A DNA stretch of 9,417 bases from the NCBI GenBank assembly GCA_947629395.1, contig CANRDQ010000041.1:1-9417 (forward strand). Reading direction: 5' to 3'. A program made the translations under genes and the position numbers. This DNA comes from an uncultured Bacilli bacterium (GTDB taxonomy: Bacteria; Bacillota_I; Bacilli_A; RF39; UBA660). This document shows, piece by piece, positions 238 to 3,737 of this stretch. Each line of letters begins with the position of its first letter. Position 1 is the first letter of the stretch. Below the pieces are notes generated by a model. It saw nothing but the letters and a program-made list of their open reading frames with translations, had not been told where the DNA came from and searched no databases.

Positions 238-1773
238 ATGAATAATTATGGAAATGCAATTTTATTTATTGCACAATACAGTAATAGACCGTTAACTGAA
301 CTTTTCAGAATGAGTCCTGCTGATTTACAAACTGAGGTACAAACAATTATTGCAGATAACACTGCTGCTGTTGATGAAATCAACAGAATTATACCAGTTA
401 TCAATGGATGGGCTGCAGCTGCTGCTAATCCAACAGATGAACTTAATACATGTCCTGGATTTGATAACAACGAAATTACAACTTTAAATACACAACTAGA
501 TAACTATCATTTATTCCATGTAGATGAACATACAACAGCTGAACAATGGAATGAATATGCAAATACTTTAAATGGTAGATTTGAACACTTTAATGATGAG
601 TTAAATGCTAATTATACTGCTTTAACTGATCCTAATGCTGTATATAATCAACCATTAAATGATGTAGATGAAGCTTTAAATTTCTATGAAAGAAATTTAA
701 CAGATGATGAAAAAGAACTTCCATTAGAAGATGCTCATGATGCTATGGTTCAAAGACATTCTAATGATGTTAGGGAATTAAATGATAAAATTAATGCTAT
801 TGATAGTATTATTGATCCAAGAAGAGAAAGCACAAATTATCAAGATAGAGAAGCTTCTTATACTAATGAGGAAGTACCTGATAGTCAAATGTTAAATGAC
901 TTAATAGATGCTTTAACAGATGATGAAAGAAGTGAGTTAGAATCTCATAGAAATCCATCTGGTAGATATACTTATGGTACTTTAGAAGATTTCAGAAATA
1001 ATAATTTACAACCACATTTAGCAAGAGAAGTAGCATATCTATCTGGTGCTAGAAGAGTTCATGATTGTATGTATCGTAATTCTCAAGATGATTTACAAAG
1101 AACATATAACGAAATTAGAACACCTCAACAAACACAACAAAACCAACAAGCTCAAGCTAACCCTGCTAGAGAATGGGCTGCACTTGCTGGAGGAATATGT
1201 GCTGGGTTTGCTTTAAGAGCTGTAGCTGTAGCTACAGGAATTAATCCTATTGCTGACGTTGTAGTTACTGGTTATGGTGTTGCTCGTAACATTTACAATG
1301 GTTTTATAAGAGACCGTGTAAATCATGACAATGCTATTGTTAGAGTGGCTGATACAGTATTTGGTCCATCTCAACATAGAACACTTGGTAAATTTATCGA
1401 TGGTGTAACTTTAGGTTGGTCAGTTTCAAAACTTGCAAATTGTGTAACTGATATGATTAAACCTGATGTGCCACCAGTAGATCCAGTCAATCCTGTACCA
1501 GTAGATCCTGTTAATCCTGTACCAGTGGATCCAATTGTTCCAAATACACCTGCACATACTTTAAGTACAACAGGTATTAGTGGATACTTTGATTCATATG
1601 GAAGTGGACCAGTAGATTTAATCGATGGTATAAATGGACAATTAGCAGAAACAAATAATGGATTCCAATTACTAAGAGAAGTTGGTACTAACACACCAAT
1701 CGCTTGGTTAAGTCCTGAACAAGTAGCTCAAGCTACTCAAACAGCTGCAGGTGCTTTAACTAAAACTCTTTAA
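238..1773 (+). CDS. Unrecognised 511-aa Asn/Gln/Asp-rich protein with hydrophobic core and Pro-rich repeat
   Basis: I do not recognise this protein. It has no signal peptide. Residues 1-290 are predicted largely helical, hydrophilic and rich in Asn, Asp and Glu (for example NAIDSIIDPRRES). A Gln-rich linker follows (about 294-309), then a Gly/Ala-rich hydrophobic stretch (about 312-352) that could form one or two membrane-associated helices. The PVDPVNPV tandem repeat is at 413-436, and a Gly/Asn-rich C-terminal domain ends in TKTL. The start is fixed by AAGGGGG seven bases upstream. With a perfect promoter and this Shine-Dalgarno, it is probably abundant. The 85-aa gene follows after 29 nt with no terminator between, so the two form an operon. 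A structural, filament-forming or secreted effector-like role are all possible; none can be chosen from sequence alone. Confidence 0.9.
   Translation: MNNYGNAILFIAQYSNRPLTELFRMSPADLQTEVQTIIADNTAAVDEINRIIPVINGWAAAAANPTDELNTCPGFDNNEITTLNTQLDNYHLFHVDEHTTAEQWNEYANTLNGRFEHFNDELNANYTALTDPNAVYNQPLNDVDEALNFYERNLTDDEKELPLEDAHDAMVQRHSNDVRELNDKINAIDSIIDPRRESTNYQDREASYTNEEVPDSQMLNDLIDALTDDERSELESHRNPSGRYTYGTLEDFRNNNLQPHLAREVAYLSGARRVHDCMYRNSQDDLQRTYNEIRTPQQTQQNQQAQANPAREWAALAGGICAGFALRAVAVATGINPIADVVVTGYGVARNIYNGFIRDRVNHDNAIVRVADTVFGPSQHRTLGKFIDGVTLGWSVSKLANCVTDMIKPDVPPVDPVNPVPVDPVNPVPVDPIVPNTPAHTLSTTGISGYFDSYGSGPVDLIDGINGQLAETNNGFQLLREVGTNTPIAWLSPEQVAQATQTAAGALTKTL
1474..1545 (+). repeat. In-frame 24-bp tandem repeat (PVDPVNPV)
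   Basis: Three 24-bp units encode PVDPVNPV, PVDPVNPV and a diverged PVDPIVPN (residues 413-436). The units differ at several silent positions (for example CCA/CCT, GTC/GTT, AAT), so the repeat is not freshly duplicated. The every-other-residue Pro/Val pattern suggests an extended, stalk-like linker between the hydrophobic core and the C-terminal domain. Confidence 0.85.
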
Positions 1774-2568: not shown

Positions 2569-2597
2569 TTGACAAATAAAGGGATTTGTTATATAAT
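2569..2597 (+). promoter_or_regulatory. Perfect-consensus promoter of the structured leader RNA
   Basis: TTGACA (2569-2574), a 17-bp spacer and TATAAT (2592-2597), all exact consensus. An inverted repeat, ACAAAT-N6-ATTTGT (2572-2589), lies across the -35 box and spacer. The start point should be near 2603-2605, which places 280 nt of RNA before the next gene. Confidence 0.9.
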
Positions 2598-2602
2598 ACC
2601 AA

Positions 2603-2880
2603 ATAAGCGAGGAGATATAAGCAAATTATTTGTGAGCTATCTCAGATGTAATATCTACACGAACTTTAAAAGTACGGAGTCGCAGTTAGGTTGATTCTGT
2701 GCTTTTTTTGTAAAAAAACAGAGTCTAATATGAACTACAGAGGGATGGTGGTTTTCAATAATGACAACCTATAGCCTCAAAATAAGAGATAAGAGGCAGA
2801 CAATTTAATTTATTAGACCAGATAATTTATCGTGAAGAGTTTAAGTAGTAGAGTGAATTTTCTAAAAAAGTAGGAGAGTG
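2603..2880 (+). ncRNA. Long structured RNA / leader, possible raiA-motif RNA
   Basis: This gene-free stretch of about 320 bases holds a strong promoter and a multi-helix RNA. Helices I can trace: GAGATA (2612-2617)/TATCTC (2638-2643) with inner CAAA/TTTG; ACTT/AAGT near 2663-2672; GATTCTGT (2693-2700)/ACAGAGTC (2718-2725) capped by a U7/A7 stem; GTCTAATA (2723-2730) with its exact complement TATTAGAC (2811-2818), enclosing GAGG/CCTC, GGTT/AACC and GCCTC/GAGGC pairings. Non-paired blocks such as TGTAATATCTACACGAAC look like conserved joining sequence. No terminator with a U-tract precedes the next gene, so it probably reads into it. From memory the size and the CTACACGAAC-like block recall the raiA motif of Bacillota, but it does not match the well-known riboswitch cores I checked (TPP, SAM-I, lysine, FMN, M-box, T-box, ydaO, glmS). 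Structured RNA: fairly sure; raiA identity: about even odds or less. Confidence 0.6.
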
Positions 2881-2887
2881 TAAGAAA

Positions 2888-3136
2888 ATGAAAGATGAAC
2901 TTAATCCTTATGTTAAGTTAGACGTAGCTTTAGAAATTTTAGCAGCTAAGATAGGAATGACTTTTAATGACAATGGTTCTGAAGAAGAGATGAGAGCTTT
3001 AATGAAAGAAAGAGATTTATTTTATCAAGGTGATAAAGAAATAATAGATAAAATTTTTAATGTTTATGCACCTGAAGTTAAAGCTAGATATGAAAAGGCA
3101 GGAGAGAAGGTTAACAAAGGATATAGTAAAAAGTAA
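2888..3136 (+). CDS. Unrecognised 82-aa helical protein downstream of the structured RNA
   Basis: No family recognised. It starts MKDELNPYVKLDVALEILAA and is predicted almost fully helical with alternating charge, no Cys, no signal peptide and no membrane segment. The lysine-rich C-terminus (EKVNKGYSKK) could bind RNA or be disordered. The Shine-Dalgarno AGGAGAG (2872-2878) is 9 nt from the ATG. It is transcribed from the consensus promoter at 2569 through the structured RNA, so its expression is probably tied to that RNA. No clear terminator follows: AGTAAG/CTTACT at 3132-3150 lacks a U-tract. Being flanked by a structured RNA and hsp20 hints at stress or stationary-phase use, but that is inference from neighbours. 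Confidence 0.8.
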   Translation: MKDELNPYVKLDVALEILAAKIGMTFNDNGSEEEMRALMKERDLFYQGDKEIIDKIFNVYAPEVKARYEKAGEKVNKGYSKK

Positions 3137-3194: not shown

Positions 3195-3222
3195 TTGACT
3201 ATTAAATTTATAGTGATATAAT
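3195..3222 (+). promoter_or_regulatory. Promoter of hsp20
   Basis: TTGACT (3195-3200), a 16-bp spacer and TATAAT (3217-3222); a second TATAAT overlaps just downstream at 3223-3228 but is 22 bp from the -35. No CIRCE (HrcA) repeat and no CtsR heptad repeat is visible, so regulation seems to differ from the classical Bacilli heat-shock operators. Confidence 0.8.
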
Positions 3223-3227
3223 TATAA

Positions 3228-3250
3228 TTGTAGGATGGAACATCTTACAA
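3228..3250 (+). promoter_or_regulatory. 10-bp inverted repeat at the hsp20 transcription start
   Basis: TTGTAGGATG (3228-3237) and CATCTTACAA (3241-3250) are complementary along all 10 bp with a single G-U, with GAA between them. It begins 6 bp after the -10 box, so it is either an operator covering the start site or a stable stem-loop at the very 5' end of the mRNA. Such 5' stem-loops can stabilise mRNAs in Bacilli. Confidence 0.6.
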
Positions 3251-3314: not shown

Positions 3315-3737
3315 ATGATACCACAAAAAAGAGGAGATTTTGATATCTTCGATGAAATGTTTAAGGATCCATTTTTTCAACATCCTCATCCACATGAGAG
3401 AGATTTGATGAAAACAGATATTAAGGAGAATGAAAATAATTATCAATTAATTATTGATCTTCCTGGTTACAAGAAAGAAGATTTAAAAATATCTGTAGAA
3501 AGTGGATACTTAACAGTTCATGCTCAAACAAATTCTGAAAAATCTGAAGAAGACAAAGGTAAATTCGTTAGAAAAGAAAGATTTGTTGGAGAATGTACAA
3601 GAAGCTTCTATGTTGGAGATGATATTGAAACAGAAGATGTTAAAGCTAATTTCCAAAATGGAACTTTAAAATTAGAGATTCCTAAAAAAGAAGCTAAAGA
3701 AATTTCAGAAAAGAAATATGTTCAAATCGAAGATTAA
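3315..3737 (+). CDS. hsp20: Small heat-shock protein, Hsp20/alpha-crystallin family
   Basis: An ATP-independent holdase that binds unfolding proteins in the cytosol and forms oligomers. At 140 aa it has the normal bacterial length. A short N-terminal arm (1-32, with Phe-rich FDIFDEMF and a His/Pro patch) precedes the alpha-crystallin domain (about 33-127), which shows the family hallmarks MKTDIKENENNYQLIIDLPG, the YKKEDLKISVESGYLTVHA strands and the A-x-x-x-NGTL signature (NGTL at 115-118) followed by KLEIPK. The C-terminal V136-x-I138 resembles the I-x-I oligomer anchor. The Shine-Dalgarno AAAGGAAG (3297-3304) is 10 nt from the ATG, slightly long. It is monocistronic, with its own promoter and terminator. 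The 90-nt leader has a start-site hairpin and may fold over the Shine-Dalgarno, which could give temperature control without HrcA or CtsR. Confidence 0.96.
   Translation: MIPQKRGDFDIFDEMFKDPFFQHPHPHERDLMKTDIKENENNYQLIIDLPGYKKEDLKISVESGYLTVHAQTNSEKSEEDKGKFVRKERFVGECTRSFYVGDDIETEDVKANFQNGTLKLEIPKKEAKEISEKKYVQIED

Follow-up and report, generated by a model that had tools for sequence, protein, structure and literature searches.

A recurrent riboswitch-like attenuator without an Rfam match in gene leaders of uncultured Bacilli and Clostridia

The leader of a gene for an uncharacterised 82-aa protein in an uncultured bacterium contains a real, recurrent riboswitch-like attenuator. It is undescribed as judged by Rfam 15 and text searches, and it is of the riboswitch kind in structure, place and platform. 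The element occupies 81 nt (2605-2685, forward strand) of the 9,417-nucleotide stretch of DNA that was analysed, here called the window. It forms a covarying four-helix structure soon after a promoter, is followed by a terminator that excludes its fold, and recurs before many different genes in two bacterial groups. The best reading is an undescribed ON-type transcription-terminating riboswitch, or else a protein-bound antiterminator, with ligand binding putative.

The region 2603-2880 sits between a NUDIX gene (2145-2564) and the 82-aa gene (2888-3136, forward strand). The perfect promoter noted in the initial annotation is borne out: TTGACA at 2569 and TATAAT at 2592 are separated by a 17-nt spacer and match the sigma-70/A consensus at 12 of 12 positions (2569-2597, forward strand), and promoter-like sequences lie upstream of most homologous elements. 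The element starts 8 nt downstream of this promoter, and the claim that the 82-aa gene is preceded by a structured RNA under a promoter of its own is supported. The accompanying picture of a multi-helix RNA of about 280 nt holds in part: the structured leader is real, but the conserved unit is the 81 nt at 2605-2685. A unit of about 80 nt plus a terminator is riboswitch-sized and does not belong to the large-ncRNA size class that had been suggested. Elsewhere in the window, a separate promoter (TTGACT-16-TATAAT at 3195-3222) precedes an Hsp20 gene (3315-3737), and directly 3′ of this promoter a 10-bp inverted repeat, TTGTAGGATG-GAA-CATCTTACAA (3228-3250, one G-U pair), looks like a possible repressor operator. 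Positions 238-1773 encode a 511-aa protein with PVDPVNP repeats and without a convincing Pfam match, next to which comes a short DUF1292-like protein (under the Pfam cut-off).

The two ends of the element are joined by P1, whose 5′ strand GCGA (2607-2610) pairs with UCGC at 2680-2683 and whose covarying second pair is UA, CG or UG. P2 (2612-2617/2638-2643) carries the apical hairpin P2b (2621-2625/2629-2633), the whole arm spanning 2612-2643, with a conserved UAA/GAGC internal loop between them (2618-2620 and 2634-2637). It is followed by the covarying P3 hairpin (2644-2656; strands 2644-2648/2652-2656) and by a conserved segment at 2657-2679 that consists of ACA (2657-2659), the P4 hairpin (2660-2676) and GAG (2677-2679), all on the forward strand. 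In consensus order the 5′ half reads AAGYGAG, a variable helix, UAA, a hairpin, GAGC and the helix's other side; the 3′ half reads a GGGN/NCCU-like hairpin, ACAC, a hairpin and GGAGUCRC, and then comes the terminator. Among 84 elements the unpaired G2611, U2618, A2619, AGC 2635-2637, ACA 2657-2659 and GAG 2677-2679 are each conserved in at least 80 copies, every position of ACA and GAG in 83-84, and the hairpin loops are not conserved. The element thus has, as riboswitches do, a covarying structure with invariant unpaired nucleotides.

The covariation check proposed at the outset, when run on homologues, gives a strong result for P1-P4. In a MAFFT alignment of 35 of 36 extracted elements (A2; an internally duplicated long form in locus L009 was excluded), P1-P4 and P2b are paired in 95.1% of cells, and 15 of 23 pairs are doubly changed. 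The covariation score is 0.424, shuffles giving 0.187 and sliding of the partners no more than 0.122; the slid control favours the structure, because the structure was written after the alignment had been seen. RNAalifold alone predicts 17 pairs on A2 (P1, P2, most of P2b and P3, but not P4), ten of them doubly changed. The covariance model R1 matched 84 elements (in 68 sequences that surround its hits, and in the window), with the window copy ranking 15th at 77.1 bits. In the alignment of these copies, which was fitted to the model structure and whose members from related genomes are not independent, 94.1% of cells are paired, 18 of 23 pairs are doubly changed, and the score is 0.538 versus 0.204 in shuffles and at most 0.135 when slid. 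There are 397 doubly changed cells compared with 136 in shuffles. Two of five measures are only modestly above shuffles: of 500 shuffles, 20 attain the 18 doubly changed pairs and 30 attain the number of further pair types. The 397 doubly changed cells and the score of 0.538 are therefore the stronger measures. P2 occurs with GC, UA, AU, CG and GU pairs, and P4 pairs in only about 85% of cells. Six clostridial copies (five distinct), unused for the model, pair in 99.1% of cells with 11 of 23 pairs doubly changed and score 0.574 versus at most 0.109 when slid; their pair types new relative to the Bacilli order are CG at 8-41 and UA at 13-36 in P2 (A2 numbering).

Several natural variants occur. 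The L009 copy (1525-1643, minus strand) has an internal duplication of about 44 nt spanning P2 and P3, which makes it a natural insertion variant. In L135, L137, L138 and L140, all preceding one unnamed 135-aa protein family, the P2b hairpin is swapped for stretches of very different length, up to GTATGAAAA repeats; P2b seems dispensable there because it is replaced by stretches of variable length. In a further subgroup (L118-L120, L122, L123, L134 and L136) the A-G opposition beside P2b becomes U-U or A-U, and the sequences UAUG..CUAGC and UAAAG..CUUAGC represent a second form of the internal loop.

The element recurs in the order of genome G001, which carries a relative of the 82-aa gene; this order is probably an uncultured lineage of the gut, for instance RF39. 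The window itself probably belongs to this order, to judge by its best matches. A blastn search with 2600-2885 against 385 genomes of the order gave matches in 37, of which 30 were confirmed by the RNA model and the other seven were short and weak only. All matches with E < 1e-8 lie within query positions 1-126 (2600-2725), most of them ending at 75-118. R1 detects the element in 55 of the 385 genomes, with two to four copies in 22 of them, and in 6 of 395 genomes of a class sample and 1 of 392 of a phylum sample, all of which were also in the order sample. A second model, R2, built from the 84 elements and not including the clostridial copies, finds the element in 4 of 199 genomes from the phylum to which G002 (contig title: Clostridia) belongs. 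Two of the four come from families in which it is present in 2 of 5 and 3 of 20 genomes, which brings the clostridial copies to six. The genome counts are lower bounds, because the large searches score some candidates per genome under strict filters. A phage or plasmid origin was rejected, there being no match in phages or plasmids; exact-pattern scans of viral contigs gave none, plus one chance match (L161) without an element around it.

Copies of the element share a position soon after a promoter, as expected of a riboswitch in a 5′ leader. A promoter-like sequence with at least 9 of 12 matches lies upstream of 71 of the 84, the mean score being 10.3 compared with 8.1 in shuffled upstream sequence, and the -10 box ends mostly 7-8 nt upstream of the element (scan distances include 2 nt of the element). 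The other end leads into an expression platform. In the window an intrinsic-terminator-like hairpin of -8.8 kcal/mol is found at 2674-2709 (forward strand) by a scan for hairpins with a U-run; it contains a bulge and goes unlisted in a stricter consensus scan. Its 5′ arm (2674-2683) includes GAG and the 3′ strand of P1, its 3′ arm is 2690-2700, and the U7 tract follows at 2703-2709. A hairpin of -6 kcal/mol or stronger with a U-run follows 77 of the 84 elements, compared with 7.7% once the downstream sequence has been mononucleotide-shuffled; five of the remaining elements have hairpins weaker than this cut-off, and no terminator was found for two. In 76 of the 77 at least two of the four nucleotides of the P1 3′ strand lie inside the terminator hairpin, so that aptamer fold and terminator are mutually exclusive, as in the platform of a riboswitch. 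P1 is absent from the minimum free energy fold of the full leader in 77 of 77, and that of the element by itself contains P1 in 72 of 77. The six clostridial copies have a similar layout, judged by eye. Two elements at most 260 nt apart precede one gene in 12 of 68 loci, both having a terminator that reaches the cut-off in 10 of the 12, and in four further loci two elements stand before successive genes.

The pairings highlighted in the initial annotation fall outside the 81-nt element. Both are present; GTCTAATA (2723) pairs exactly with TATTAGAC (2811) but at chance level, and GATTCTGT (2693) pairs with ACAGAGTC (2718) only with one G-U pair and not exactly as claimed. GATTCTGT is part of the terminator and pairs there with the end of the element. 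Within 2603-2880 one exact 8-bp pairing is observed, and at least one occurs in 21 of 60 dinucleotide shuffles; when G-U pairs are allowed there are 31, a count reached by 1 of 60 shuffles. For 2712-2880 alone the observed counts are reached by 23 of 100 (exact) and 87 of 100 (G-U allowed) shuffles. Folding z-scores are -2.39 for the leader at 2603-2880, -1.03 for 2711-2880 and -1.34 for 2605-2685, the element alone folding only moderately better than its shuffles. Folding energy by itself would not decide; the homologues do. The structure beyond chance is P1-P4 at 2605-2685, because homologues and covariation show it.

Conservation does not extend over some 280 nt as had been supposed: strong blastn matches are confined to 2600-2725, and those of 2712-2887, in 21 of 145 family genomes, span just 21-53 bases, none of them credible. 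No common leader was seen in five loci with short matches, inspected on one strand. Blastn, R1, Rfam and folding together leave 2711-2887 (forward strand) as an extra leader of 177 nt for which no credible homologue was found. A second, diverged copy of the element there was rejected, since unfiltered R1 scores reach no more than 4 bits, and cmscan of 2700-2890 against Rfam (E ≤ 10) gives no significant match. The extra leader holds a possible 15-codon ORF, MTTYSLKIRDKRQTI (2761-2808, forward strand), behind a GGTGG that resembles the sequence preceding the gene at 1803; this ORF is absent from a test restricted to AGGAGG.

The 82-aa protein belongs to a small uncharacterised family. Family searches assigned it no family, and a protein search among 5.77 billion proteins returned three matches including itself, the closest relative sharing 68% identity. 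Relatives in genome contigs are found in L001 ('uncultured Bacilli bacterium') and L002 ('uncultured Clostridia bacterium'); in neither does the RNA precede the relative, which in L001 begins behind a short leader devoid of the element, and genomes G001 and G002 gave no model match under strict filters. The 82-aa gene was accordingly rejected as the reason for the RNA, given the L001 relative without an element and G001 without a model match. It is not among the recurrent partners of the element, and it seems an incidental one because the relative in G001 lacks the RNA.

Genes behind the element are diverse, and many are unnamed. They were tallied as 71 of 72 first genes, spurious first ORFs of L112, L139, L121, L075 and L133 being replaced by the next ORF and the replacement in L139 then excluded; genes from related genomes are not independent in these counts. 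ABC_tran is the commonest named family (15/71; ATPases of ABC exporters), followed by Acetyltransf_1 (GNAT, PF00583; 11/71), and methyltransferases, purine-phosphorylase-like and isopropylmalate-synthase-like proteins occur twice each. Among 57 control ORFs of at least 90 aa, taken from 26 loci that short matches had picked up, ABC and GNAT each account for at most one. The best NCBIfam match of a representative ABC ATPase is DrrA (daunorubicin resistance), at 239 bits below the cut-off of 312, and ABC-2 permease-like genes come next after the ATPases. First or second genes also include NUDIX, Ham1-NUDIX, PF01663 phosphodiesterase and peptidase S51 proteins. Clostridial copies have an exporter of the same kind in L169 (and after one other ORF in L168), GNAT in L172 and a methyltransferase in L171 and also L163; an S66 peptidase in L170 and a PF01663 protein in L168 lie further downstream. 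An unnamed family, A4, with 12-13 members, recurs behind the element. A suspected likeness of A4 to the Spo0A C-terminal region was rejected when Pfam (two members), NCBIfam (two) and a PDB profile search gave nothing significant; a protein search with one member returned three close relatives, all unnamed. The isopropylmalate-synthase-like genes of L123 and L132, which follow the element at a distance of about 190-220 nt, are biosynthetic partners that were not expected. The mix of export, acetylation, methylation and hydrolase genes suggests a response to toxic compounds, and perhaps a detoxification regulon under the element.

A search of the element with all Rfam models (cmscan) gave no family at E = 0.1 or better, which supports the earlier statement that the RNA would be new if no class matched. 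The best match, to the L20 leader (RF00558) on 2613-2714, is insignificant (17.2 bits, E 0.21); it falls far under the gathering threshold of 58.7, and the window gene does not encode a ribosomal protein. The raiA motif is a family in Rfam, and the RNA had been proposed to be a raiA motif or its relative. This fails: no raiA match appears on the window (E ≤ 5), on 2596-2715 or 2700-2890 (E ≤ 10), in 20 homologue loci (E ≤ 1), in 10 loci (E ≤ 0.1) or in four clostridial loci (E ≤ 1). Both are structured RNAs of Bacillota, but the raiA motif is a large ncRNA whereas the element has about 80 nt. The window gene, which has no family, is not raiA, and no raiA is found in the 25 listed of the 39 Pfam families of the 71 first genes. 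T-box leaders of Gram-positive bacteria choose between a terminator and an antiterminator, and the element is like them in this respect; however, no element matched the T-box model (RF00230), and the hairpin loops of the element are not conserved. A T-box was reported elsewhere in L017 (65.9 bits, below gathering), not at the element. In the available portions of their description, the guanidine-IV riboswitch and its variant Gd4v are built of two hairpins that a pseudoknot links, with the terminator as the 3′ hairpin, and Gd4v is enriched in gut samples (PMC9788692). The same portions give them a 5′ leader position, a terminator platform thought to raise genes, and GNAT and efflux (MATE) genes downstream, as likenesses to the element (PMC9788692). 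The described architecture sets them apart from the element: the element is a closed four-helix junction in which P1 joins both ends and the terminator is separate, and its covarying structure, compared at the level of helices, is not that of two pseudoknotted hairpins with the second as terminator. The available portions of PMC9788692, PMC8632094 and PMC11109978 describe no such motif, and within the text searches made no description of the element was recognised.

RNA-binding regulators of the antiterminator type, such as BglG/LicT, HutP and PyrR, raise the possibility that the junction is the binding site of a protein and not of a small molecule. The mutually exclusive terminator would serve such a protein equally, one protein could serve every copy in a genome, and the recurrent A4 family could itself be the regulator, because no function was found for it. 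A closed four-helix junction with near-invariant unpaired positions in 84 copies and two groups is nevertheless more typical of aptamers, and no known antiterminator appears in the 25 listed of the 39 Pfam families of first genes, which makes the protein rather unlikely. It is improbable to a greater degree that an antibiotic-stalled short leader ORF chooses between antiterminator and terminator. Exporters and acetyltransferases are typical drug-inducible attenuator targets, and the window has its possible 15-codon ORF. That ORF lies 3′ of the terminator, however; short ORFs preceded by a Shine-Dalgarno sequence occur in only 14 of the 84 (element plus 40 nt) and encode differing peptides, no conserved leader peptide of the kind that marks such attenuators was found in the 84 elements, and constraint falls on pairing. 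The coupling of resistance genes to their antibiotic by leader attenuators is described in the available part of PMC5418344.

Another reading accepts the class and takes the window instance for a degenerate copy that gives only promoter and terminator. The 82-aa gene is an unusual partner, starting 202 nt after the element when the first called ORF is at most 118 nt away in 63 of the 84 (automatic ORF calls), and the extra leader without a credible homologue intervenes. Yet the high rank of the window copy under R1, its compensated P1 (GCGA/UCGC), its conserved junction positions and its perfect promoter speak for an intact element, and degeneration appears unlikely. That the leader is a raiA-motif RNA or some other large, ornate ncRNA, as its full length of 280 nt and its multi-helix appearance might suggest, is scarcely credible given the lack of an Rfam match, the limits of strong conservation, and the terminator and many different genes downstream; cmscan of the window, homologue and clostridial loci rules out raiA or another Rfam class.

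The leader is thus probably a cis-acting ON-type transcription-attenuation switch in which P1 is held closed by a predicted ligand. As RNA polymerase leaves the promoter, 2605-2685 would fold into the four-helix junction (P1, P2 with P2b, P3 and P4). A ligand, most likely a small molecule, would hold P1 closed and block the terminator at 2674-2709, and the 82-aa gene would be transcribed; P1 closed would mean no terminator and the gene on. Without ligand the more stable terminator would win and transcription would stop near 2709. Such switching in vivo, like a toxic compound as the signal, is a prediction.

Riboswitches for antibiotic-like compounds are rare and debated. It is conceivable, though somewhat doubtful, that a new riboswitch class senses a toxic compound directly and turns on the scattered genes of a detoxification regulon in uncultured Bacilli and in Clostridia. 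If so, the compound could be a gut metabolite resembling an antibiotic, a xenobiotic, or a metabolite that has been damaged. The regulon would then comprise exporters like DrrA, GNAT acetyltransferases, methyltransferases, and hydrolases of nucleotides or peptides, and the response would be made sharper by the tandem copies, most of which have terminators of their own. The element adds a well-supported riboswitch-like class without an Rfam 15 match in bacteria known mostly from metagenomes, and it is a compact, testable aptamer candidate. Finding its ligand would reveal what these bacteria monitor, and would explain the export, acetylation and methylation genes behind the element, including the recurrent nameless families.
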